Origin: Candidatus Nitronereus thalassa
GTDB taxonomy: Bacteria > Nitrospirota > Nitrospiria > Nitrospirales > UBA8639
NCBI RefSeq assembly: GCF_032191465.1
Contig: NZ_JAQOUE010000001.1
Coordinates: forward strand, 1,736,001-1,800,000
Length of the DNA: 64,000 nucleotides
Reading direction: 5' to 3'
Every line of letters starts with the position of its first letter. Position 1 is the stretch's first letter. Shown piece by piece: positions 3,614-16,492 of the stretch. The notes under the pieces are model-generated. The model was not told where the DNA came from, did no database searches, and was given only the letters and a program-made list of their open reading frames with translations. Made by a program: the position numbers and the translations under genes.

Positions 3614-4561
3614 TTATTGACCTCGCTCAATTATCAGAGCTTGGTCATTGGGTTTGACCGTGGCTTTAATAAAGTCCCCGAATTTGAATTCTTCGGTCAC
3701 CTTGGTTTTGGGAGTACGTTCGACTCGGATCTCACCATACTCTCCACGCAAGACATAGAAATCGCCATCGATCATCAAAATTTGTCCCTTAACAATTCTA
3801 GTATCGGTGGGAAGTGTGCGTGGACCAGGGGAAGTAGGTTGGGATTCCTTCTTTCCGGGCTGTTGCGTAGACTGAGGCTTCGTTTTTTCCGGTAATGGGT
3901 TCACCAGGGCTTGCTTTGTCGTCACGCCTGACATCTCATTGACTCCGGCGCGCTCGATCTTCAAGGCTTTATTATTGTCTATGAGGACCGCAGCTTTAAT
4001 CCGATCCCCATATTTAAACTTTTCCGTAATTTCCGTTTTAGGAGTTGCTTCGATTTGGATCTCCCCTCGTTCACCGCGCACGATATACAGATCCCGATCA
4101 ATCATCAGAAGGTCGCCAATAATGATTTTCTGATCCGGTTGCTTCGGTTGGGTTGATGGCATTGCAGCCGGAGCAGGGACCTTGGCCTTTTCGGATTCTG
4201 CTTTAGCTGTGGAGGGTGCTTTGGCAACCACTGGTCGATTCTCCACGACTCCCGATATATCATTCGGACCCGCACGCTCGATCTTCAAGGCTTTATTATT
4301 ATCCATGAGAACAATAGCCTTGATCCGATCCCCAAATTTAAACTCTTCCGTAATCACCGTTTTATAGGTCGCTTCGATTTGAATCTCCCCTCGTTCACCA
4401 CGCACGATATAAAGATCACGATCGATCATCAGCAGGTCACCAATAATCGTTTTCGTTTCTGTGGGTTGGGCTCCCTGCCCTAAGGCATTCCCCATGTACA
4501 GAATCAACACGCCACATAGAGCACAGGCAATTTGAGCATTCAATTTCAGGGTTAGTCTCAT
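3614..4561 (-). CDS. Exported protein with three copies of a ~60-residue module
   Basis: A 315-residue protein with an N-terminal signal peptide (MRLTLKL, then a hydrophobic stretch ending near GNALGQG) and three copies of a module that reads approximately 'IIGDLLMIDRDLYIVRGERG...FKFGDRIKA...ALKIERAG', separated by Pro/Lys-rich linkers. Modules 1 and 2 are almost identical, also at DNA level, while module 3 has diverged (ILMIDGDFYVLRGEYG). The ATG at 4561 is preferred to an in-frame ATG 24 bases upstream because the GGAGGG ribosome binding site lies between them. I do not recognise the family; the module looks like a small beta fold and could bind a ligand or a wall component. The near-identity of modules 1 and 2 indicates recent internal duplication or gene conversion. 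Confidence 0.75.
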   Translation of the reverse strand: MRLTLKLNAQIACALCGVLILYMGNALGQGAQPTETKTIIGDLLMIDRDLYIVRGERGEIQIEATYKTVITEEFKFGDRIKAIVLMDNNKALKIERAGPNDISGVVENRPVVAKAPSTAKAESEKAKVPAPAAMPSTQPKQPDQKIIIGDLLMIDRDLYIVRGERGEIQIEATPKTEITEKFKYGDRIKAAVLIDNNKALKIERAGVNEMSGVTTKQALVNPLPEKTKPQSTQQPGKKESQPTSPGPRTLPTDTRIVKGQILMIDGDFYVLRGEYGEIRVERTPKTKVTEEFKFGDFIKATVKPNDQALIIERGQ

Positions 4562-4636
4562 GATGTTACGGCCCTCCGTCCACACTCACGGTCAAGGTTA
4601 AGCATTCAAAAGTGAAATCTACACAGCGTGTATTGG

Positions 4637-5416
4637 TCATATGGTACCATACCCGTTCATCCTCATCCATAGACTTCCCAGCACCACACCAGACATAATT
4701 ACAAGGGCGCAATAATCCTGAATGGTCAGGTGTGACTCAAAAAGAGGACGCCGTGGTTCACCTGGGCCAAAACCCTTAGATTCAAGCGCCATGGCCAAAA
4801 GGTTGGTTTGGCGAAGCGTATGGCCAATTAAGGGCACGACCAACGCGGGGTATTGCCGAATTTTTCCTGTCAAAGATGTTGATTTCAAATCTAACCCACG
4901 GGATCGCTGAGCTTGAATCACGGCACCGATCGAACTCAACAAATTGGGCACCCATCGGAAGGCCAACGCCACGGCAAATCCAAGGGAACGCGGTACACCT
5001 AGCCGATGTGAAGACTCGGCGAATTCCTCGATGGCAGTAGTCGATAATAGAATAATGCCACTGATAAGCATGGCATTCAAACGCAGCCCCATTCCCATCC
5101 CATGGAAAATCCCTTCACGCATCACCGTCATTCCGGCGATGGTCCATAGGGGGGTCGTCCCTTCCACGAAAAATGGCCAGAGCACGACGTTGTACACGAA
5201 CAACAAGGCAAGCAAAATCCAAATTTTTTTAAGATTGGTGATACACCGTGCACAAAGGACCAAGCCAAAGATTCCCAGGGTCAGACCGAACAAGTACACA
5301 GGATCGGAAAAGACCAGCGAGAGGCAAAACAGTCCTAGAAGGCAAAGGATTTTGGTCCGGCCATCCAACCGGTGCACCCATGTCTGTTCATCCTGGAATA
5401 ATGAAAGGTTCGTCAC
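4637..5416 (-). CDS. ecfT: ECF transporter transmembrane component (EcfT/CbiQ family)
   Basis: A 259-residue integral membrane protein with several hydrophobic helices and the Ala-Arg-rich coupling helices typical of CbiQ/EcfT (for example AFRWVPNL and AQRSRGLD), which transmit ATPase movement to the S component. Its start codon overlaps the end of the upstream S-A-A' fusion gene by 4 bases (ATGA type), so the two are translationally coupled and form one energy-coupling-factor importer. Length and motif layout match the family. The operon begins with egtB, so the importer may serve thiohistidine metabolism, but the substrate is not shown by this subunit. Confidence 0.9.
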   Translation of the reverse strand: MTNLSLFQDEQTWVHRLDGRTKILCLLGLFCLSLVFSDPVYLFGLTLGIFGLVLCARCITNLKKIWILLALLFVYNVVLWPFFVEGTTPLWTIAGMTVMREGIFHGMGMGLRLNAMLISGIILLSTTAIEEFAESSHRLGVPRSLGFAVALAFRWVPNLLSSIGAVIQAQRSRGLDLKSTSLTGKIRQYPALVVPLIGHTLRQTNLLAMALESKGFGPGEPRRPLFESHLTIQDYCALVIMSGVVLGSLWMRMNGYGTI

Positions 5417-7809
5417 GTGCGCAAAGCCTTAGTCACTTCATCAACGGTGAGAAGTGTTGAGCCCCACCGTTGGGAAAACCGAGTCAGAGCAGGCCATTCC
5501 AAGGTGGCAGCGCACATGAGCTCTTGATTGGAAAATATGTTTCGGGTCGGCCCATCTCCCAACACAGCTCCATGCCCAAGAAGGACACATCGCTTCGCAT
5601 ATTTAGCGACTAACTCCATGTCATGGGTAATCATGATAATAGTGTGTCCCTGTTGATTCAGGCTACGAATCATGGTCATCATCCGTACCGACTCCTCCGC
5701 GTCAAGACCGGTCGTCGGTTCATCGACGATGATGACTTGAGGTTTTGTGGCCAAAATCGAGGCCACAGCCACCCGCTGCCGTTCCCCCTTCGTCAGAGAA
5801 AAAGGATCCAGTCCCTCAGCCCCGGTTAACCCCACGGCCTGAAGCGTATCTTCCACTCGTTGGTCGCATTCCTCCGAGGGGCACCCGGCATTTCTCGCGC
5901 CAAACGCAATTTCCTTTCTTACAGTTTCTGCAAAAATTTGATGGTCCGGATTTTGAAACACATGTCCTACGATGGATGCTAACCGGCCTACTCCGGCTTC
6001 CGCCGTATCTTGTCCCTGCACCAGAACGCGGCCTTGGGATGGCACAAGCAGGCCATTGAATAATTTGGCCAAGGTACTTTTTCCCGAGCCATTTTGCCCA
6101 ATGATCGCTACGAACTCACCGGCCTGAACGGACAGTGAAACTTGAGAAAGTGCCAGAACTCCAGGTTGGTACTCCACAGACACCTGCTGGACTTCGATGA
6201 TGTTGGAGGAAGAAAGAGGACTTGCCAAACTTGCCCCCGATTCATGTGATTCAAGAGACTTCAGCTGTAACCCTAGATTCTCCGCAATATGCCAAGCTTC
6301 TTCCACGGTTGCCGGTAACGTTGGTACACCAATGTCCTGAAAACATTTCGCCAGCGGAAACAGACTCACTCCATGTTGAATGGCAAGCTCGGGATGACTT
6401 AGCAAATCCCTGGGCGTTCCCTGCCAACGCACTTCCCCTTGATCAAGCACTACCACCCGATCTGCTGCAATCAAGTCCTCTATACAATGCTCCGCCAGGA
6501 TCACTGTCACACCCTTGGCTTTGAGTTGTGCCAAGAGTTGAATAAACACCCGCCGCCCCTCTGGGTCCAGATCAGTCAGTGGCTGATCCATGACCAACAC
6601 TTGGGGTTCACGCACCAACACGGAGGCCACTACCAAGCGTTGTCGTTGTCCTCCTGAGAGGCAAAAAGGATTACGCCGAGCGAGGCCGGATAATCCGACC
6701 AGCTTCAAGGTATCGTGAATTCGTTGATGCAACGCGGCCTTGTTCCACCCATTTCGCGGTCCATTTTGGGACTCCAGAGCATATCGAAGTTCTGTTTCAA
6801 CATTCGTGGATACAAGTTGTGTTTCAAAATCCTGAAACACCATCCCAACTCGATTGGCCTGTTCCCAGACCGGAGTATGTGTGGTCTGATGCCCCATTAC
6901 CGTCACCGTCCCTTGAAAATCACCCTGGACAAACTGAGGAACGAGGCCGTTCAATGCATAACAGAGCGTGGATTTTCCGGAACCGGTTCTGCCCATCACC
7001 ACCACCAATTCTCCACGCTTCACGGCTAAAGAAAGCTTTGAAAGAACAGGACGCGGAGCATGAGTCGGATGAAAAGTCAGATCCTGAATGGAAACCGCCA
7101 ACGCCTCAGGGTGAAGCCCTATGGATGCTGGCTCTCTAATCGTTTCAGTTTTTGACTGGGCTCCCGACCCCGAACCCACCAGAGTGCCTCGATCGAAATC
7201 GCGATAGAATAAATTCCATTGCTTCACACGAGGATAAAGAAACAGAAGTAGCGGAGGCCCGAGGAGCAACCCCATGACCAAGTTATTAAAAAAGATTGCC
7301 GGCGTCAGTAGCCAAAACGGCAGAAGGCCCAACAGTTCCACACCCCACCCGATAGTAACGGCGCAGACCATGGATGCTAGAATGCCAATGATGAGGTACT
7401 CTAGGCCTTGCCTCCATGATCGCACGACGGGTTCCCGCCCAGAGGATAACCAGCCCAAATTCCCCCATAATACATACGGCACAAAGCCATAGAGAAAATT
7501 GCCTAAAAACCCAAACAAGCTGGCAGGCCCCAATGTGCCAAAACAATCCCCAATGATATTACCAATTCCCGATCCCCAGGCAGCCGCCGGACCAAAAAGT
7601 AGTGAGCTGACAATGGGAATGACATTTGCGGGACGGAGCTCTACAAACCCAGGAATAATCGGAATGCCGACTTTAAAGGGAATGAGCACTGCTGCATAAA
7701 TCGCTGCGATTTGCGCGGTTAAGACTAACAGGCGAGTATCCTCCCAGACATGTCGGAGCTCTCGATACCATCGACGCGGACTCCAAGGGGAGAGGGAAGG
7801 AAGATTCAT
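5413..7809 (-). CDS. ECF importer: S component fused to two ABC ATPase domains
   Basis: A 798-residue fusion. Residues 1 to about 220 are a hydrophobic S component with about six membrane helices, of a family I cannot assign to a known vitamin. Residues about 235-470 are ATPase domain 1 (Walker A GRTGSGKST, signature LSGGQRQR, Walker B VLVMDQP, switch His in LAEHC). Residues about 545-770 are ATPase domain 2 (GQNGSGKST, signature LTKGERQR, Walker B VIIVDEP, switch ITHD). Domain 1 carries Gln in place of the catalytic Glu, and domain 2 carries a degenerate signature, so one of the two composite ATP sites should be inactive. The gene follows egtB by 39 bases and overlaps ecfT. Separate S and A proteins are more usual. 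Confidence 0.9.
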   Translation of the reverse strand: MNLPSLSPWSPRRWYRELRHVWEDTRLLVLTAQIAAIYAAVLIPFKVGIPIIPGFVELRPANVIPIVSSLLFGPAAAWGSGIGNIIGDCFGTLGPASLFGFLGNFLYGFVPYVLWGNLGWLSSGREPVVRSWRQGLEYLIIGILASMVCAVTIGWGVELLGLLPFWLLTPAIFFNNLVMGLLLGPPLLLFLYPRVKQWNLFYRDFDRGTLVGSGSGAQSKTETIREPASIGLHPEALAVSIQDLTFHPTHAPRPVLSKLSLAVKRGELVVVMGRTGSGKSTLCYALNGLVPQFVQGDFQGTVTVMGHQTTHTPVWEQANRVGMVFQDFETQLVSTNVETELRYALESQNGPRNGWNKAALHQRIHDTLKLVGLSGLARRNPFCLSGGQRQRLVVASVLVREPQVLVMDQPLTDLDPEGRRVFIQLLAQLKAKGVTVILAEHCIEDLIAADRVVVLDQGEVRWQGTPRDLLSHPELAIQHGVSLFPLAKCFQDIGVPTLPATVEEAWHIAENLGLQLKSLESHESGASLASPLSSSNIIEVQQVSVEYQPGVLALSQVSLSVQAGEFVAIIGQNGSGKSTLAKLFNGLLVPSQGRVLVQGQDTAEAGVGRLASIVGHVFQNPDHQIFAETVRKEIAFGARNAGCPSEECDQRVEDTLQAVGLTGAEGLDPFSLTKGERQRVAVASILATKPQVIIVDEPTTGLDAEESVRMMTMIRSLNQQGHTIIMITHDMELVAKYAKRCVLLGHGAVLGDGPTRNIFSNQELMCAATLEWPALTRFSQRWGSTLLTVDEVTKALRT

Positions 7810-7848
7810 GGTTTTTGGCGAAAGGAGAAAAGAAAATAGAATGAGTTG

Positions 7849-9057
7849 TTAGGTATTGCGAACACACCGAAATCCAACATGGGCATGAGGATAGCCTTGA
7901 CGAAACCAATTTCGAAAGGAACGCCGTAATAAACTGGAGGCAGTAGTTGGCGATCCACCTTTTACAATGAAATGATCGTCATCAAAGAAACGGCTCGAAT
8001 AACCGGGATACGTGGCATAGGGCTGGAACCCTTCAAATGGACGAAAGGGTGTGATGGTCCATTCCCATCCATTGCCCACCAGTTGAGAGATGCCAAAGGC
8101 ACTGTTGCCTTGCGAATATGCGGTCACGGAAACCGGGTCCCAATGTTGGAAATTAAAATTTCCTTGGACCCCATTTGGCGACGCCTGGCCCCATGGATAG
8201 ACTTGTTCACTCCCTGCCAGCTTGCCATACGCCGCACGATGAAATTGCGCTTCTGTCGGAAGGGAAAGCCCGGCCCAGTCGGCATACGCACGGGCATCGA
8301 TGAGCGACACATACACTGGCCAATGATTGGGAAGGGGAATTTCATCAAACATCGTTTTCAACCACCACTGCTCATCCCGTTTCACCCAAAATGGTGGAAT
8401 AGCCCCACCCTCCTCCACAAATTGTCGATACTGCTGATTGGTGACTTTATATTGGCTCATGGCAAAGGCGGGAACGTCCACTTGATGTTCCCCAAATTCA
8501 TTATCCCAACCAAATCCCTCGCGCCGGCCAAGGGTCACTCTGCCTTGGGGAATATCAATGAACCGATGTTGGGGAGAACGACCTTCGGTAGCTTGAGAAC
8601 CCGAGGGCTGTTTTTTTCCGGCACGTGGCGCATGGTGCAGAATATAGGCCGTGGTTTCCGCATGCATCCAGCGATGCTCAATCGCCATTCTAACGATTGG
8701 TTCGGGAGCCTCTTCCAACGCGCGGTCCACTGCTTCCCGTGCCTTGAGATTATAGCGCCGGACCTCCGTCATTGACGGCCAATCTGAGGGGGTATCGGCT
8801 TGCTGTGATCCCACCTCAGGGTCAATGCCCGCCTCAAACAAGGTATCAAAGGTGGAATGAAATGAGGACTGCCCTAACGTCCACCGACAAATCTGATTCC
8901 AATCAAAGGCCTCCACATGTCCGACATAAAAAATCACCCGATGACGTTCAGGAATGGGACGCTCATAAAGAGTTTCCTGCGTAAAAAGAGAAAAGATTTG
9001 ATCCATGCGGGCTCGCGCCTCGGATAATTCCTTTCGAATTTCAGCCAAACTCTGCAT
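7849..9057 (-). CDS. egtB: Ergothioneine synthase EgtB (non-haem iron sulfoxide synthase)
   Basis: A 402-residue protein with an N-terminal DinB-like helical domain and a C-terminal formylglycine-generating-enzyme-like domain, the architecture of EgtB, which joins hercynine to a thiol using oxygen. The iron-binding triad is present: His47 in YVGHVE and His128/His132 in EHRWMHAE, equivalent to His51, His134 and His138 of mycobacterial EgtB. The C-terminus carries the family motif RRSFRNWFR. No egtA or egtC lies nearby, so this may be the type that uses cysteine directly instead of gamma-glutamylcysteine (inference). GAGG five to six bases before the ATG supports the start. First gene of the egtB-ECF importer operon, divergent from the egtD side. 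SenA-like selenoneine synthase is less likely since no senB or selD is adjacent. Confidence 0.88.
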   Translation of the reverse strand: MQSLAEIRKELSEARARMDQIFSLFTQETLYERPIPERHRVIFYVGHVEAFDWNQICRWTLGQSSFHSTFDTLFEAGIDPEVGSQQADTPSDWPSMTEVRRYNLKAREAVDRALEEAPEPIVRMAIEHRWMHAETTAYILHHAPRAGKKQPSGSQATEGRSPQHRFIDIPQGRVTLGRREGFGWDNEFGEHQVDVPAFAMSQYKVTNQQYRQFVEEGGAIPPFWVKRDEQWWLKTMFDEIPLPNHWPVYVSLIDARAYADWAGLSLPTEAQFHRAAYGKLAGSEQVYPWGQASPNGVQGNFNFQHWDPVSVTAYSQGNSAFGISQLVGNGWEWTITPFRPFEGFQPYATYPGYSSRFFDDDHFIVKGGSPTTASSLLRRSFRNWFRQGYPHAHVGFRCVRNT

Positions 9058-9110
9058 AATCCCTCACTCATCGTTGTGTTGAAAAGTGGTATTTCATGAA
9101 TATTCCAGCC

Positions 9111-9116
9111 ATTATA
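9111..9116 (-). promoter_or_regulatory. Probable -10 element of the egtB operon
   Basis: On the minus strand the bases read TATAAT, a perfect -10 box, roughly 55 bases before the egtB start codon. The hexamer 17 bases upstream (CATGAA) is a poor -35, so an activator may be needed. A CATGAAT...ATTCATG inverted repeat (about 9095-9154) spans this region between the two divergent transcription units. The -10 match is seen directly; promoter activity is inferred. Confidence 0.45.
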
Positions 9117-9206
9117 GTCACTTTTTGCTGAAATTCATGTGTGAGCGCATTTTTGATTGAACCTTTGTAATATATCACCCGCCAGGGTTGTCAAGAACTA
9201 AAGACC

Positions 9207-9959
9207 ATGAAATCACCGGTTCTCAGCCTTCACGATGTGTGCAAAACATTTGGACCCCACGTCCAAGCCCTTCAAGATCTCAATCTGAACATATTTCACG
9301 GTGAAACCGTCGTACTTATCGGAGAAAGTGGGTCTGGGAAAACCACCCTTCTCCGAATGTTGAATGGATTGGAACATCCAACCTCCGGCGCCGTACGCAT
9401 TCATGGAGAATCAATTCATGGCCGAGACCCCATTGAGATTCGTCGCCATATTGGTTATGTCCAACAAGATGGAGGATTACTGCCCCATTGGACTGTAGAG
9501 GAAAATATTGGGCTGGTGCCGCTTTTACTCGGATGGGATGTAGACACACGAGCCGCCCGAGTCGAGGCTTTGCTGGAACTCATTCATCTTGACCCCAGCC
9601 AATTTCGCACACGCTATCCAATCCAACTCTCCGGTGGACAACGTCAACGGGTCGCATTTGCCCGAGCACTTGCCGCCGACCCCGACATCATCTTGTTTGA
9701 TGAACCCTTTGGCGCGTTAGACGCCATCACTCGTCACCAGCTCCAAGAAGAATTTTTGGAACTCAAGCAACGCCTCAACAAAACCTTAACGATGGTCACG
9801 CATGATATTGATGAGGCCTTCCTCCTGGGAGACCGCATCGCGGTGTTGAAAGACGGCCATCTCCTGCAATTTGGAAGCCCTGAAGAACTTCTCTACGCAC
9901 CTGCTCATGAGTACATTTCACATTTGCTCCAACATCGGTCTCGTGGGAGGGACTCATGA
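9207..9959 (+). CDS. ABC transporter ATPase, OpuCA/OsmV-like (quaternary amine or thiohistidine import)
   Basis: A 250-residue ABC ATPase of the glycine-betaine/choline importer group. Walker A is GESGSGKTT, the Q loop YVQQDGG, signature LSGGQRQR, Walker B IILFDEP and switch His in MVTHDIDEA. The usual C-terminal CBS domains of OpuCA are absent. It overlaps the next gene, the fused binding protein-permease, by four bases (ATGA), so together they form a complete importer. Its place directly before egtD and opposite egtB suggests import of a quaternary amine of this pathway, such as ergothioneine or hercynine, as for the EgtU importers of Helicobacter and streptococci; that is an inference. No strong ribosome binding site precedes the ATG. 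Confidence 0.9.
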   Translation: MKSPVLSLHDVCKTFGPHVQALQDLNLNIFHGETVVLIGESGSGKTTLLRMLNGLEHPTSGAVRIHGESIHGRDPIEIRRHIGYVQQDGGLLPHWTVEENIGLVPLLLGWDVDTRAARVEALLELIHLDPSQFRTRYPIQLSGGQRQRVAFARALAADPDIILFDEPFGALDAITRHQLQEEFLELKQRLNKTLTMVTHDIDEAFLLGDRIAVLKDGHLLQFGSPEELLYAPAHEYISHLLQHRSRGRDS

Positions 9960-11539
9960 ACCCGCCACTCTCATTTCTGGGACGACGAATGGGCGCCGTG
10001 ATTTTTTTAGTCTTCTCTTTCCTCTTACCGTTCGCCCCACCCGCATTTTCCGAAGACAATCGGATTGTGATTGGATCAAAAAATTTCATGGAGAACAAAC
10101 TTCTCGCAGAAGTGTTCGCCCAACTCATTGAAGCCCGCACCGACTTGCAGGTCGAACGGCGTTTCGGATTGGCTGGCACCCAAGTTTGCTTTGAGGCATT
10201 GCTGAATGGCGCCATCGATCTCTACCCGGAATACACCGGTACCGGGTTGGTGAGTATTCTCCAATTCCCCCCAACAGGAGATTCCCGAACAGCTCTGAAC
10301 ACCGTCCGGGCAGAGTTCTTGAAACGTTGGGACCTGTGGTGGTTGAACCCCTTGGGCTTTGAAAATTCTTATGCGCTGGCCGTCACCCGCTCTGCGATAT
10401 CCGACCCAACGTTACGAACCATTTCTGATCTTGCCAAGATCTCCTCCTCCCTTCGGGCAGGACTGGGATACGAATTCATTAAACGACCTGATGGGTTGCC
10501 GGGACTTGAACGACGATATGGCCTCTCGTTCCAACATGTCCAGGCCATGCAACAGTCGTTAAAATACCAAGCGGCTGCTAATGGGAACATTGATGTTCTC
10601 GATGTGTATACGACCGATGGACGGTTGTCTGTTTATGACTTCGTGGTGCTGGAAGATGATCAACATTTTTTTCCGCCCTATGAGGCGTCCGGAGTTATCA
10701 GAGGTTTAACCCTTGAACACCATCCGCAGTTGGGCGCGGTATTAGGGTTATTAAGCAACGCCTTCGATGCTAAGGCCATGCAGCAGTTGAATTTTCGTCT
10801 ACAGGAAGGTGGGGAACCACTGGAGATCGTCGCACGTGATGCTTTGTCATCAATCGGATTACTCGGGACGGACGCCGCCACACCTGACGCCGGCTCCCGT
10901 CAAGACGCTCTCTTGCCCTATTTGTGGGAGAACTGGAAAACCCTGATGGACCGTACCTTCGAACATCTTACTCTAGCGGGCTTAGCGCTCGGATTGGGAA
11001 TATTTCTCGCTGTCCCCTTAGGATTATTGCTCGAACGCCGCCCATCGATGGCTGAACACATCATTCGCGGTATCGGACTCACTCAAACGATTCCCTCTAT
11101 TGCATTACTGGCCTTCATGATCCCCGTCTTTGGCATTGGCATGGTGCCTGCCGTGATGGCGTTATGGATTTATTCGCTGTTTCCTATTGTCCGAAACACC
11201 TATTCCGGTCTTCGTGATGCCGCTCCCCAGGCAGTCGAATCGTCTCGGGCACTTGGAATGACGGAATGGCAAATTCTCAAATGGGTTCGGCTACCGTTAG
11301 CAGCTCCCGTCATCATGGCCGGCATTCGAACCGCTGGTGTTATCACCGTAGGGACAACGACCTTGGCCGCCTTTATAGGGGCCGGAGGCTTAGGGGTACC
11401 CATTGTCGCGGGATTGCAAATGGCCAATACCACCATCATTCTCTCGGGAGCTTTACCCGCCGCTGTGCTCGCCCTGGTGATCGATGGGTCATTGAGCAAA
11501 GTGGAACACTGGGTCAGACCACGAGGGCTTCACCTATGA
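9956..11539 (+). CDS. Fused substrate-binding protein and permease, OpuC/EgtU type
   Basis: A 527-residue protein. After an N-terminal signal/anchor segment (residues about 12-32) comes an OpuAC-like binding domain (about 35-310, IGSKNFMENKLLAEVFAQLI and the LYPEYTGTG motif), then a permease domain with about five helices (about 335-515) and an EAA-type coupling loop (ESSRALGMTEWQILKWVRLP). EgtU proteins, known ergothioneine importers, fuse the same two parts but with the permease first; here the order is reversed. The neighbouring ATPase overlaps its start, and egtD and egtE-like genes follow. Ergothioneine or another betaine is the likely substrate by context; choline or glycine betaine remains possible. 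Confidence 0.88.
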   Translation: MNPPLSFLGRRMGAVIFLVFSFLLPFAPPAFSEDNRIVIGSKNFMENKLLAEVFAQLIEARTDLQVERRFGLAGTQVCFEALLNGAIDLYPEYTGTGLVSILQFPPTGDSRTALNTVRAEFLKRWDLWWLNPLGFENSYALAVTRSAISDPTLRTISDLAKISSSLRAGLGYEFIKRPDGLPGLERRYGLSFQHVQAMQQSLKYQAAANGNIDVLDVYTTDGRLSVYDFVVLEDDQHFFPPYEASGVIRGLTLEHHPQLGAVLGLLSNAFDAKAMQQLNFRLQEGGEPLEIVARDALSSIGLLGTDAATPDAGSRQDALLPYLWENWKTLMDRTFEHLTLAGLALGLGIFLAVPLGLLLERRPSMAEHIIRGIGLTQTIPSIALLAFMIPVFGIGMVPAVMALWIYSLFPIVRNTYSGLRDAAPQAVESSRALGMTEWQILKWVRLPLAAPVIMAGIRTAGVITVGTTTLAAFIGAGGLGVPIVAGLQMANTTIILSGALPAAVLALVIDGSLSKVEHWVRPRGLHL

Positions 11540-11749
11540 TGGGCTCGATCACAGAAAACGGTTTTGCCCTTCCACTACAAAGCAAATTGATCTCGAATGG
11601 AATGAGTCGGAGTGTTTCTCAATCACCGAAAATTTTTCATTGACCTTGCACATCTCCCGGCAAACCATTAAAGTCCGCATCCTTCAGGATCTCACTGTTT
11701 CCTTGCATCAACTCTCCCCCTTACATATTTGTCTAAAGGGGTTATCAGC

Positions 11750-12724
11750 ATGCTTGATCAATCCAATATTCTCATTGATGTCCATGTCCATACTGACCCC
11801 GACAGGGTGAAACAAGAAATTCGTAATGGACTGCTTTCCTCACCAAAAAAACTGCCGACCAAATATTTTTATGATGATCGAGGATCGGCTCTCTTTGAAC
11901 AAATCTGCGAATTGCCGGAATACTACCCCGCACGAACTGAATTCCAATTACTGAAAAACACAGCCGATGATGTGGTCGCCCAGACGGGGGCTGACACTTT
12001 AGTAGAACTCGGATCAGGCGCGGCCACGAAAACCCGCGTATTGTTCGATGCTATGTCGCGGGCCAAACAGCTCCGGCTCTACGTCCCATTTGATGTCAGC
12101 GAAGGCATCGTGCGACGTGTGGCCCAAGAACTCGTAGAGGAATACCAAGGGTTGCAGGTTCATGGAATAGTCGGGGATTTTCTCGCGCATTTGGAACACA
12201 TTCCGGAAGGTGGTAAACGATTGGTCGCCTTTTTGGGCGGAACCATCGGCAACTTGGGCCCTGAAGAGGCTCTAGCTTTTCTTTCCTCAATTTATGAGGA
12301 AATGGGCCATGGAGATTTCTTTCTCTTGGGCGTGCAACTCACCACCGATGTGAACCGTTTGGAAGCGGCCTATAATGATTCAGCAGGCATCACGGAGACT
12401 TTCAATAAAAATATTTTATCCGTTTTGCAATCCGTGATCGGAGCCGAATTTGACCTTGATGCGTTTGAGCATATCGCTCGCTTCAACCATGAACAACACC
12501 GTATTGAAATATACCTACGATCCCGACGTGATCAAGCTATTCCCATTCCAGAATTGGACTTACATCTTCGATTGCACGAAGGGGAAGAAATTCTTACTGA
12601 AATCAGCACGAAATATACTCGGCCTCAAGTGGAGACGCTACTGACCGGGGCGGGCTTCAGTCCTGTGGAATGGTACACCGATCCCGATCACCTCCATGGT
12701 TTGGCCCTAGCCAAAAAACGGTAA
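11750..12724 (+). CDS. egtD: L-histidine N-alpha-methyltransferase EgtD
   Basis: A 324-residue SAM-dependent methyltransferase of the EgtD family, converting histidine to hercynine (trimethylhistidine), the first step of ergothioneine synthesis. Family hallmarks include KYFYDDRGSALFEQI near the N-terminus, the SAM-binding VELGSGAATKT, FLGGTIGNL in the middle and a conserved C-terminal ALAKKR. Length matches mycobacterial EgtD (about 321). The ATG at 11750 follows AAAGGGG by about eight bases, so I prefer it to an in-frame TTG 21 bases upstream. It lies about 210 bases after the importer and is followed by an egtE-like gene; egtB is in the divergent operon. Confidence 0.93.
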   Translation: MLDQSNILIDVHVHTDPDRVKQEIRNGLLSSPKKLPTKYFYDDRGSALFEQICELPEYYPARTEFQLLKNTADDVVAQTGADTLVELGSGAATKTRVLFDAMSRAKQLRLYVPFDVSEGIVRRVAQELVEEYQGLQVHGIVGDFLAHLEHIPEGGKRLVAFLGGTIGNLGPEEALAFLSSIYEEMGHGDFFLLGVQLTTDVNRLEAAYNDSAGITETFNKNILSVLQSVIGAEFDLDAFEHIARFNHEQHRIEIYLRSRRDQAIPIPELDLHLRLHEGEEILTEISTKYTRPQVETLLTGAGFSPVEWYTDPDHLHGLALAKKR

Positions 12725-12785
12725 CTCCCTTTCTTTCCCGTTTTCTCCGAAAACTCGATTTTCCTTTTTTTCATCACTCTTTGCT

Positions 12786-13928
12786 ATGATCGTGGGCGAA
12801 GAGCGATATCCCATTGCCAAAATATCTGAACACTGGCCAGTCATGATCTATCTTAATTATGCCGCGCTTTCTCCGACTCGTCCTGAGGCCGAACAAGCGG
12901 TTACCAATACACTCGCCGAATTCAAGCACTATTTGTATTCCGACGCGGGGATTCAATGGTATCTCGGCAAAGTCCTGGAATGCCGCCAGCAAGTAAGCAA
13001 GCTATTGAATGTCACTGATCCATCCACCATTGCCTTTGTCTCCAATGCTTCAACCGCTCATTATATTGCCACCCGCTCACTTCAATGGAACCCAGGTGAC
13101 GCCATTCTGACTTCCACCCATGAAAATCCTTCCATTACGCGCCAATTTAAGGCTTTGGCCCATCGAGGAGTTCGCATCCAGGAGGTGAATCCCTCGTCGC
13201 CTGATGAATTGCTATGCTCCATGTCTCAGGCACTCGACCAACACCCGTTTAAAGCTATTATCCTGAGCCATGTCTCTCATGTGGATGGAAGGATTTTTCC
13301 CATTCAGGCAATTTCGAGTCTCGCCAGAAAGCATGGCGTGAGGTTGTTCATCGATGGGGCGCAAGCCGTCGGACATATCCCCATTGATTTGAGTCAATTA
13401 GAGTATGATGTGTATTTTTTTACCGGCCACAAGTGGTGTGCAGGCCCCTTAGGTACGGGCGCAATGATTGTAAATCCTCGCTTCTTGCAAGGTCACTCGA
13501 CTTTGCCTGTTCAGGTCAACGTAGGAGAAACGCCGCAGGTCAATCAATTTGAAATTGGGACACAAAACATTGGGCTCATTGCCGGACTAGCGAAGGCCTG
13601 TGATAGTAAATATCAAGAAGGGGTGGGAACGGAAAGACTTAAAAAATTTCGCCAACAAGCCAAGGATCTCTTGGGGAAACGACCAGGGAACAAAGTTATT
13701 GAATGGAGCGGCCCCCAGGCTCCTGGCATTCTGACCATCCAGGGCCAACCGGGATTGGACCATCAACGGTTGGTGGCACAGTTAGCGGCTAAGGCCGGAA
13801 TTATCGTGAAGCCGTTTGTGGGATATCCGCCAGACATCATGCCTGCCATCAGGCTTTCGTGGGCTGCCATGATGAATGCCCAAGATTTTCACAGAGGAAT
13901 CGAAGGGTTTGCGAAAAGCCTTGGTTGA
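12786..13928 (+). CDS. Class V PLP enzyme, EgtE-like C-S lyase or cysteine desulfurase homologue
   Basis: A 380-residue fold-type I PLP enzyme of the aminotransferase class V/cysteine desulfurase family. Asp190 (DGAQAVGH) should hold the PLP pyridine nitrogen and Lys216 (TGHKWCAGP) should form the Schiff base. Position directly after egtD, and with egtB across the divergent promoter, points to the EgtE role: cleaving the C-S bond of the hercynyl-cysteine sulfoxide to give ergothioneine. The start is uncertain: no clear ribosome binding site precedes the ATG at 12786, and an ATG at 12843 (MIYLNYAALSP) would also give a complete enzyme. Isopenicillin-N epimerase-like or selenocysteine lyase-like annotation of the same family is possible. 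Confidence 0.8.
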   Translation: MIVGEERYPIAKISEHWPVMIYLNYAALSPTRPEAEQAVTNTLAEFKHYLYSDAGIQWYLGKVLECRQQVSKLLNVTDPSTIAFVSNASTAHYIATRSLQWNPGDAILTSTHENPSITRQFKALAHRGVRIQEVNPSSPDELLCSMSQALDQHPFKAIILSHVSHVDGRIFPIQAISSLARKHGVRLFIDGAQAVGHIPIDLSQLEYDVYFFTGHKWCAGPLGTGAMIVNPRFLQGHSTLPVQVNVGETPQVNQFEIGTQNIGLIAGLAKACDSKYQEGVGTERLKKFRQQAKDLLGKRPGNKVIEWSGPQAPGILTIQGQPGLDHQRLVAQLAAKAGIIVKPFVGYPPDIMPAIRLSWAAMMNAQDFHRGIEGFAKSLG

Positions 13929-13936
13929 ATACAACG

Positions 13937-14356
13937 TTAGCTCCCTGACTGAAGATAACCGCGGAGGACATCTCGGCGCGCGATGATGCCAATTAACTTT
14001 CCACTCCCATCGACAACTGGGACACGAATCAAATGGTTGTTTTGCAGAATATCAATGACCGCTGGGACATCCATACCCTGAAAGGCTGAGATGGGATTCG
14101 GCGTCATAACATCGCTGGCCAAGACTTCGGATAATTTACTGCCTTTTCTGAGCGCCTTCAAGAGATCGAATTCAGACACGATGCCGACTAATTTTTCTGA
14201 GCCGTCGATAATCGGCACCGACCCATATCCCTCCATCATATAGTTCGCCAGCATTTCCGCCTTGGAGTCTTTGTTGGCGGACTGAACGTTTGTTTCCATT
14301 AACTGACCGACGGTCATTTTCCCAAACTTAGTCTCTCGAATATTCGATCCTGACAT
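13937..14356 (-). CDS. Tandem CBS-domain protein
   Basis: A 139-residue protein made of two CBS domains (a Bateman module), from about residue 15 to the C-terminus. Typical motifs are VPIIDGSEKLVGIVSEFD in the first and VPVVDGSGKLIGIIARRD in the second. Such stand-alone pairs bind adenosine nucleotides or SAM and regulate partner proteins; no partner is fused here. The ATG at 14356 has AAGGAG seven bases upstream and replaces a longer frame start at 14443 that lacks one. It is convergent with the egtE-like gene with only eight bases between the stops. Confidence 0.88.
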   Translation of the reverse strand: MSGSNIRETKFGKMTVGQLMETNVQSANKDSKAEMLANYMMEGYGSVPIIDGSEKLVGIVSEFDLLKALRKGSKLSEVLASDVMTPNPISAFQGMDVPAVIDILQNNHLIRVPVVDGSGKLIGIIARRDVLRGYLQSGS

Positions 14357-14527
14357 ATGGTTCTCCTTTAGAGGAACATGAATAGATAATCTCTCAATAA
14401 ATGGAATTGTTTCCCTGAAACCCTTAGGTGTATTGCATCGCACAATAGCACGAAATCCAAGCCGATTCCATATGAAGACCCTTTCAGTAAGTAGCCCCTG
14501 GATGCCTCTTTACTGTAACGCCGATTA

Positions 14528-15439
14528 TTAACTCTGACAACGCCTCAGGCGTGTTTCCAGTATGCGATCTGAAGCTAGGGATTCGCATTTCAAATAATTT
14601 GCGACAGCTTGAGTTACCGCCTCTTGCGGGATCAAGCCCACAAGTTCACTGTTTGCAATCGAGACCCCGCGTCGCTCCGCTTCAGTCCTTACAGCTTCAA
14701 ATACGACATGAAGCGGCGTCATATGAAAATTCGTGAGATTCATCGACACCTGAACCAAACCCCTGCTTTTCAGCTCCAAGCCCAATGCCTTGACTGCGGG
14801 CAAACCGCCTCCCGAGGTACGAATGGTTTTGGCAATGGCTTGGGCAAGAGTTAGATCGTTGGTATCCAGAACAATGTTAAAGGCAATCAAGAGATGCCGA
14901 GCACCAACCGCGATGGCACCGGCTGAGGGATGCAGCTTGGCAGGACCGAAGTCAGGTGACCAGGCAGGATCAGACTTCATTCGTGCCGCTAGACTAGATA
15001 AGCCACCACGCCGAATAACTTCTAACGGTTTACGGAAAGGCTGATTACAAGCTTCCTCATAGAGAAACACCGGAATTCTCAACTCATCGCCAATTCGTTT
15101 TCCAACCTTTTTAGCCAACTCCACACACTGATACATCGTTTCCCCATCAAGCGGAATAAATGGGAGGACATCAGTTGCGCCAATTCGCGGATGTTGCCCC
15201 GCATGTTGACGTAAATCAATCAATTCGGTCGAGGTTTTCACCAGGGCAAAGGCAGCCTGAGCTACCGCATCAGGAATGCCCACAAAGGTGAAGACACACC
15301 GATGGTGGTCATTATCATGATGCCGATCCAAAAGGCTCACGCCTTTAACGGAATTGATAGCATCGGCAAGCGCCTGAATCGTCTCAGCCTTGCGGCCCTC
15401 ACTACAGTTCGCCACACATTCAATGATAGATTCAGCCAT
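14528..15439 (-). CDS. ftcD: Glutamate formimidoyltransferase
   Basis: A 303-residue formiminotransferase with N-terminal and C-terminal subdomains (family motifs IIECVANCSEGR, HHDNDHHRCVFTF, GQHPRIGATDVLPFIPL and VSMNLTNF). It transfers the formimino group between formiminoglutamate and tetrahydrofolate; the cyclodeaminase domain of the mammalian bifunctional enzyme is absent, as usual in bacteria. It is normally the last step of one histidine degradation route, but no hut genes are in the window, so a role in folate one-carbon salvage is also possible. The placement near the histidine-consuming egt genes may be coincidence. It is transcribed away from the dsrE2-tusA operon. Confidence 0.92.
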   Translation of the reverse strand: MAESIIECVANCSEGRKAETIQALADAINSVKGVSLLDRHHDNDHHRCVFTFVGIPDAVAQAAFALVKTSTELIDLRQHAGQHPRIGATDVLPFIPLDGETMYQCVELAKKVGKRIGDELRIPVFLYEEACNQPFRKPLEVIRRGGLSSLAARMKSDPAWSPDFGPAKLHPSAGAIAVGARHLLIAFNIVLDTNDLTLAQAIAKTIRTSGGGLPAVKALGLELKSRGLVQVSMNLTNFHMTPLHVVFEAVRTEAERRGVSIANSELVGLIPQEAVTQAVANYLKCESLASDRILETRLRRCQS

Positions 15440-15499
15440 TTTTTAAGGATTCTCTCAATAAACTATCTTCGTATTGGACTCCGGCTTCATACCCCAAAC

Positions 15500-15536
15500 C
15501 CTCTTTCTTGACAACCCGAAAGAGGCCCTATTATAG
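15500..15536 (+). promoter_or_regulatory. Sigma-70 promoter of dsrE2-tusA with a dyad around the -35
   Basis: TTGACA at 15508-15513 and TTATAG at 15531-15536 are separated by exactly 17 bases, about 127 bases before the dsrE2 start. An inverted repeat CCTCTTTC (15500-15507) / GAAAGAGG (15518-15525) brackets the -35 box, so a dimeric repressor bound there would block RNA polymerase. The boxes and the dyad are seen directly; the regulator is unknown. Confidence 0.65.
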
Positions 15537-15662
15537 TAAAAACTACTAACTTTTCTTTCTTCTTTCCCACCCATTCAACGTGTATGTTTCTCTAGACAAT
15601 CACAAGGTGGGACAGGGTAAGAAGACAACTACTTACTCCCAAATAATACGACAGGTGATTCC

Positions 15663-16193
15663 ATGAGCATAACGCAAGTTGAACCCGCCACGACCCTCGC
15701 ACAACTCCAGGAATCTAAATCTGACAAGGTTACAATTGTTCTCCTGAGTGGAGATATGGATAAGGCCATGGCCGCCTTTATTATTGCCACCGGGGCTGCC
15801 GCCATGGGGATGCAGGTCACCATGTTTTTTACCTTCTGGGGATTGAATGTGATTCGCAAGCCCGGAGCCTCCAGCACGGCCAAGGACTTCCTACGTAAAG
15901 CCTTTGGCTTTCTCAACAAAGGCGGTGCGGACAGCCTTCCCCTGTCCAAGTTTAATTTTGGCGGCATGGGAACCACCATGATGAAAAAAGTCATGAAAGA
16001 CAATCGCATGCCTGGCGTACCCGAACTCATCCAGACGGCCTTGGACCTCGAGGTGAAAATGATTGCCTGCACCACAACTTTAGGCCTCCTTGGAATTTCC
16101 AAGGACACACTGATCGACGGCGTGGACCAACTTGCAGGCGTTTCCACCTATTTGGCTGAAGCCAAAAACGGTTCCGTGAATTTGTTTATTTGA
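15663..16193 (+). CDS. DsrE2-like sulfurtransferase/sulfur carrier protein
   Basis: A 176-residue protein of the DsrE/DsrF/DrsH-like family (DsrE2 type), which passes sulfane sulfur between cysteine persulfides in the cytoplasm. It has the family pattern: an N-terminal strand-helix with GDMDKAMAAFIIATGAA, a hydrophobic stretch that may associate with the membrane (MGMQVTMFFTFWGL), and Cys136 in MIACTTTLGLLGI, the likely persulfide site. It is followed 53 bases later by tusA, the usual partner. In sulfur oxidisers these go with rhodanese and Hdr-like genes; none are here, so in this organism the pair may serve sulfur assimilation, tRNA thiolation, or sulfur supply to the nearby ergothioneine locus (inference). 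Confidence 0.88.
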   Translation: MSITQVEPATTLAQLQESKSDKVTIVLLSGDMDKAMAAFIIATGAAAMGMQVTMFFTFWGLNVIRKPGASSTAKDFLRKAFGFLNKGGADSLPLSKFNFGGMGTTMMKKVMKDNRMPGVPELIQTALDLEVKMIACTTTLGLLGISKDTLIDGVDQLAGVSTYLAEAKNGSVNLFI

Positions 16194-16246
16194 GAAAGAG
16201 ACTTTGGAGTGGGTGCCCCCCCTCACCAATATGTAAGGAGCTACCA

Positions 16247-16492
16247 ATGATTGAATCCGATGTTAAACTCGATACCTTGGGCTACTTCTGCCCTATGCCA
16301 ATCATTCTCACTTCCAAAAAAATCAAAGAACTCACCATGGGGCAAGTTCTGGAAGTTCTTTCAGACGACGAGGGGATTAAAAAGGACATGCCAGCTTGGT
16401 GCCAAACAACCGGACATGAAATGGTAGGATTAGAGGAAGAAGATTCTGATCCAAAGCGAGTCTATAAAGCCTACGTCAAAAAAGCTAAATAA
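16247..16492 (+). CDS. tusA: TusA-family sulfur carrier protein
   Basis: An 81-residue SirA/TusA fold protein. The functional Cys15 lies in the family signature GYFCPMPI (CPxP), and the downstream strand-helix GQVLEVLSDDEGIKKDMPAWC matches the family, with a second Cys in the AWCQTTGHE segment. It carries sulfane sulfur as a persulfide between sulfurtransferases. The ATG at 16247 is chosen over an upstream in-frame ATG at 16190 since AAGGAG sits six bases before it. Same operon as the DsrE2-like gene, transcribed from the promoter at 15508-15536. Confidence 0.93.
   Translation: MIESDVKLDTLGYFCPMPIILTSKKIKELTMGQVLEVLSDDEGIKKDMPAWCQTTGHEMVGLEEEDSDPKRVYKAYVKKAK

Follow-up and report, generated by a model that had tools for sequence, protein, structure and literature searches.

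Ergothioneine is made from histidine at the cost of three methyl groups, which EgtD transfers from S-adenosylmethionine (SAM) to each histidine, and of one sulfur atom, which EgtB introduces from a cysteine-type donor. MtaT, the ECF importer assigned to methylthioadenosine (MTA), is itself a predicted family. In passages of PMC3654945, this importer is number 33 among the families of ABC uptake porters (TCDB 3.A.1.33). Another described S component, QueT (PF06177), belongs to ECF importers for preQ1. Among the importers for ergothioneine itself, the EgtU/EgtV system pairs an SBP-permease fusion with an ATPase, and the sections of Zhang et al. (2022, PMC9732360) on SpEgtU stress G244 and F293 as determinants of ergothioneine affinity and describe the cage of this protein as common to other quaternary-amine binders. 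Our literature search found no paper connecting ECF importers with ergothioneine, in agreement with the first-pass annotation of the DNA studied here, to which such a link was new; the passages found on methylthioadenosine together with ECF transporters contained no further link.

The window, i. e. the whole stretch of 64,000 nucleotides that was analysed (G000:C1:1736001-1800000), is part of a genome of 4.0 Mb in two contigs. The minus strand carries egtB, the S-A-A' fusion and ecfT in this order: 39 bp separate egtB from the fusion gene, and the stop codon of the latter overlaps the ecfT start by 4 nt (GTGA), so that the operon-like unit read in the first-pass annotation holds. The same is true for its identification as a real ECF importer: a CbiQ/EcfT protein, two ECF-type ABC ATPase domains and a predicted S-component fold come together in one unit. 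The ATPase gene of the betaine-type ABC importer diverges from egtB at a distance of 149 bp, and this importer, egtD and the egtE-like gene were all found again on the plus strand (Table 1). We call the egtB product EgtB-like because it stays under the cut-off of TIGR03440 (183 of 360 bits) and has EgtB-IV as its nearest relative in the PDB. Solved structures of EgtB-IV and OvoA (8vih, 8khq) are the closest to this protein; it differs from both enzymes in that it scores under both NCBIfam cut-offs (for OvoA, 238 of 400 bits).

Table 1. Genes and regions of the locus; positions are those of the window.
Feature	Position	Strand	Evidence
ecfT, ECF transmembrane T component	4637..5416	-	Pfam CbiQ 111.8 bits, E 4.6e-32
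A-A', two fused ECF ATPase domains	5413..7203	-	NCBIfam ECF_ATPase_1 431.9 bits, two stretches
S component (fusion residues 1-202), MtaT-like; 5'-thioadenosyl nucleoside specificity proposed	7204..7809	-	Pfam QueT 62.3 bits; AF2 fold; neighbours of relatives
Whole S-A-A' fusion gene	7809..5413	-	Pfam/NCBIfam scans
egtB-like sulfoxide synthase	9057..7849	-	FGE-sulfatase and DinB domains; nearest solved relatives EgtB-IV, OvoA
Divergent intergenic region, without known riboswitch	9058..9206	.	riboswitch scans
Betaine-type ABC importer, ATPase, EgtV-like	9207..9959	+	NCBIfam proV 265 bits, under cut-off 326.6
Betaine-type ABC importer, SBP-permease fusion, EgtU-like	9956..11539	+	Pfam OpuAC and BPD_transp_1; EgtUC among PDB matches, E about 1e-51
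egtD, histidine N-alpha-methyltransferase	11729..12724	+	TIGR03438 343 bits, over cut-off 290.9
egtE-like PLP enzyme	12786..13928	+	Aminotran_5; TIGR04343 82.5 bits, under cut-off 400

According to its AlphaFold2 model (pLDDT 86), the S domain has the fold of an S component. The best match in structural alignment was 4hzu_S (Z 17.3, rmsd 2.6, 161 residues), followed by the S components for folate, thiamin and riboflavin. The assignment of the fold rests on this alignment, as Foldseek gave no E value below 0.001; a sequence-profile search of the PDB with the S domain gave no match up to E 10.

The genes beside its relatives point to what this S component may bind. Outside the Nitrospirota, we analysed 43 loci with S components that are 45-57% identical to the one of the window, and salvage genes adjoin S in 13 of them: MtnP in six and SahH, directly after S, in seven. 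In the six MtnP loci (L104-L106, L114, L132 and L135) the identity is 49-53%, and several of these loci also contain MtnA, a TRZ/ATZ-type deaminase and a Met/Cys PLP lyase. The locus L106 is from Caldanaerobacter subterraneus, presumably the species group from which MtaT was described; here, MtnA, A-A', T, MtnP, S and the lyase follow one another on one strand, 7-66 bp apart. The seven loci with S directly before adenosylhomocysteinase (L123, L126, L130, L131, L138, L140 and L141) belong to Actinomycetota, a Clostridia bin and a Treponema bin, and this arrangement suggests that S-adenosylhomocysteine (SAH), and not only MTA, is a likely substrate of ECF importers. Curated models confirmed the neighbouring MtnA (444.7 bits, cut-off 279) and SahH (551 bits, cut-off 497.6). 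The two MtnP-type genes that were scanned reached 252 and 255 bits, under the MTAP cut-off of 274.85, and one of them passes the cut-off for methylthioinosine phosphorylase (231 vs 223); the deaminase and lyase neighbours score under the equivalog cut-offs. The remaining 30 of the 43 loci, the whole Binatota/Myxococcota clade included, have neither MtnP nor SahH as a neighbour. In a tree of 56 rows (the window, 12 of 37 Nitrospirota loci and all 43 loci from outside this phylum, with long branches for L139, L144, L120, L124, L102 and L119), the rows with MTA context form one clade, those with SAH context require two changes, and those with ergothioneine (EGT) context require one.

The importer of the window shares with MtaT the architecture of S, A-A' and T, and near relatives of its S component are located in MTA-salvage operons, among them L106, this kinship being judged through the S components of such operons rather than through the TCDB 3.A.1.33 reference sequence. 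It differs from MtaT in the fusion of S to A-A' and in its operon, which contains egtB and no MTA-salvage gene. The first-pass annotation had been unable to assign the S component; judged by its near relatives, it is a putative member of a group that adjoins MTA/SAH salvage genes. Most likely, we are dealing with a known, predicted kind of S component for thioadenosyl nucleosides in a new neighbourhood.

From the neighbours of its relatives we infer the substrate: we consider it somewhat probable (roughly 0.6) that the locus encodes a complete ECF importer with an MtaT-type S component for 5'-thioadenosyl nucleosides, which feeds the methionine/SAM and sulfur pools of ergothioneine synthesis. 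The S component would bind methylthioadenosine, S-adenosylhomocysteine or a close analogue, uptake would be powered by ATP hydrolysis at A-A', and the imported nucleosides would enter the SahH and MtnP/MtnA routes to provide sulfur, adenine and methyl-cycle intermediates. As MtnP, MtnA and SahH are encoded in the genome of the window, away from the ECF genes, imported MTA or SAH could flow back into methionine, SAM and adenine. Moreover, transcription together with egtB would couple salvage to the demand for ergothioneine, since its synthesis uses three SAM and a cysteine-type sulfur. With this proposal, an ECF importer of a Nitrospirota family gains a testable substrate class.

The S domain is present in 35 of the 59 genomes searched, including that of the window: in 31 of the 36 genomes of the window's own family (f1) and in four of f2, with none in f3 and f4. 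Conservation of the egtB-ECF linkage had been named in the first-pass annotation as a point to check, and the linkage is indeed not unique to the window genome: 23 of the 34 S-bearing relative loci have both genes, always on the same strand (23 of 23) and 11 to 4303 bp apart. If the window is counted, egtB is found within 4.3 kb of S and on the same strand in 24 of 35 S-bearing genomes. Of the 11 S loci without egtB, six belong to a single genus and four to f2, and the last one lies at a contig end; for two of the six, egtB is located on the same strand about 16 and 20 kb away. A set of named contigs, which shares genomes with the 59-genome set, gave egtB in 23 of 37 Nitrospirota loci, and almost all named contigs with the nearest relatives bear a Nitrospirota label ('Nitrospira sp.', 'Nitrospirales bacterium'). 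The locus counts by family establish that the egtB-ECF link is real across genera and confined to one Nitrospirota family, f1. The S frame of one relative, at G021:C174:1912-2190, contains two TAG stops, reflecting either decay or an assembly fault.

A gene for an UshA-like 5'-nucleotidase (Metallophos and 5_nucleotid_C domains) directly precedes S in 11 of the 37 Nitrospirota loci, among them L041, L045, L048 and L051 (e. g. L048:8456-10102 on the minus strand), and is placed between egtB and S in 10 of these 11; such a neighbour would be fitting for a nucleoside substrate. In none of the 37 Nitrospirota loci do salvage genes adjoin the ECF genes. MtnP is present in 57 of the 59 relatives with or without S, and its presence therefore does not predict S. 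It is tempting to extend the proposal to a thioadenosyl importer that is aided by the 5'-nucleotidase in some species and wired into ergothioneine synthesis, that scavenges the MTA and SAH of neighbours to supply SAM and cysteine for EgtD and EgtB, and whose S family also imports SAH in Actinomycetota, as in the S-SahH operons; in this full form, however, we regard the idea as unlikely.

The alternative that survives best, and that we rate at nearly even odds, is that the ECF system imports a thioadenosyl or other nucleoside without any tie to ergothioneine, and that it adjoins egtB by descent in one family. The substrate claim is common to this explanation and to salvage in the service of ergothioneine synthesis, and the confidences given to the two thus overlap. 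In favour of mere descent, the link is limited to f1, the ECF genes of f2 lie away from the EGT genes (four loci), clusters of egtB, egtD, egtV and egtU without ECF exist in f2/f3 (L184, L185, L187 and L188), and three f1 genomes without S (L180-L182) retain the ordered egtB-egtV-egtU-egtD-egtE locus. Against it, egtB and ECF are co-directional in all 23 cases, even in genomes in which egtD is 40-90 kb distant and egtB is still close to S, and this holds for S identities down to about 70%. Since EGT loci persist without ECF in f1 as well as in f2/f3, the ECF importer is a dispensable add-on to the EGT cluster; the betaine-type ABC system, which is close to constant, accompanies the EGT genes more steadily as an import partner. 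The ABC pair also joins egtB and egtD in families other than f1. We infer the functional tie from the shared operon, for which salvage feeding the demand of ergothioneine synthesis would be a reasonable cause and hitch-hiking is about as likely.

It is far less probable that the S component of the Nitrospirota has changed its substrate to ergothioneine, hercynine or another histidine derivative. The first-pass annotation had considered import of a thiohistidine or histidine derivative by the ECF system, an idea for which no positive support beyond position has emerged. A switch of this kind would agree with the family-wide linkage to egtB, with the clade of their own that the Nitrospirota S components form in the tree (support 100/98), and with the distribution of EgtD, which is found in 46 of the 59 genomes and in 34 of the 35 with S; yet EgtD is also present in 12 of the 24 genomes without S. 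(Second EgtD matches below the cut-off occur elsewhere in G001, G003, G010, G013, G015, G016, G018, G021, G022, G024, G026, G030, G038 and G044; in G021 and G022, some of them are fragments.) Moreover, the polar residues of S are shared with the relatives from MTA/SAH operons: in a set of 79 S rows that covers EGT, MTA, SAH and unlinked contexts and from which L124 and L139 were dropped, K46, E57, R59, N84, D88, N104, N175 and N176 are conserved to 100% and R194 to 99%, and there are six fixed differences between Nitrospirota and MTA/SAH rows, none of them charged. Finally, the cluster itself makes ergothioneine and already has a betaine-type ABC importer. Judged by these residues and neighbours, the ECF importer most likely takes up thio-nucleosides rather than ergothioneine itself.

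The betaine-type system resembles EgtU/EgtV, as far as the sections of PMC9732360 on SpEgtU describe it, in the SBP-permease fusion with a separate ATPase, in the cage and in the carboxylate ligands: with the SpEgtU numbering transferred by an offset corrected by eye rather than by a printed alignment, N137, Y139, Y218, Y242, K42, T96 and R177 of the window SBP correspond to N339, Y341, Y419, Y443, K242, T296 and R379. It differs in that its fusion starts with the SBP and that F44 and Y93 replace G244 and F293, so that the Gly/Phe pair of EgtU is missing. Phe and Tyr occupy these positions in 26 of 26 SBPs, the window counted (KNF and PEYTGT motifs), in a motif search that required the GSK/GAK and YPE-TGT frame and left the two positions open. 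The choice of possible substrates for this importer is wide because the same sections tie ergothioneine affinity to the two replaced residues; ergothioneine, hercynine or another betaine are all possible.

Import of the queuosine precursor preQ1, which the Pfam name QueT would suggest (PF06177, 62.3 bits over a cut-off of 33.7), is highly improbable, as six Clostridial genomes encode a distinct QueT (132-147 bits) in addition to a relative of the window S (60-79 bits), QueC is present in the window genome, the best BLASTP hit of S to the compared QueTs has an E value of 0.72, and there is no preQ1 riboswitch, the last being a weak point as QueT loci equally lack one. The two S components thus share a Pfam family by profile match without significant BLASTP similarity; towards the approximately 50% identical relatives, the E values are about 1e-58 or better. 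The QueT set in BLASTP was drawn from eight QueT-family loci, two of which (L152 and L168) were lost because they gave no ORF; the ORF of L154 ran into upstream sequence. QueT proper was rejected as the identity of S on the grounds of coexistence and of the BLASTP values. The first-pass annotation had named membership of S in a known vitamin family as a result that would refute it: for QueT proper this did not come true, and the assignable, MTA/SAH-salvage-linked group is nevertheless a result of the refuting kind.

The upstream riboswitch that had been suggested as a further check was not found, neither at gathering score in the window nor at E values up to 5 in 8950-9350; relevant riboswitches were also absent from 12 loci outside the Nitrospirota and from 13 QueT-family loci. 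Promoter and terminator scans stayed at or little above the level of shuffled sequence, PF09819 had no match in the window genome, and the matches in a plasmid collection were limited to short ATPase stretches of two records.

Two groups of genes flank the locus. After ecfT, window positions 3614-4585 encode a protein in which a weakly OB/BOF-like unit occurs three times; this gene recurs at that place in many relatives, and at L181, where ECF is missing, it is located about 0.7 kb past egtB. Beyond the EGT genes, positions 13937-16492 encode a CBS protein, a glutamate formimidoyltransferase (365.6 bits, cut-off 221) and DsrE-like and TusA-like proteins, and several of these genes again adjoin the EGT genes at L180, L190 and L193.
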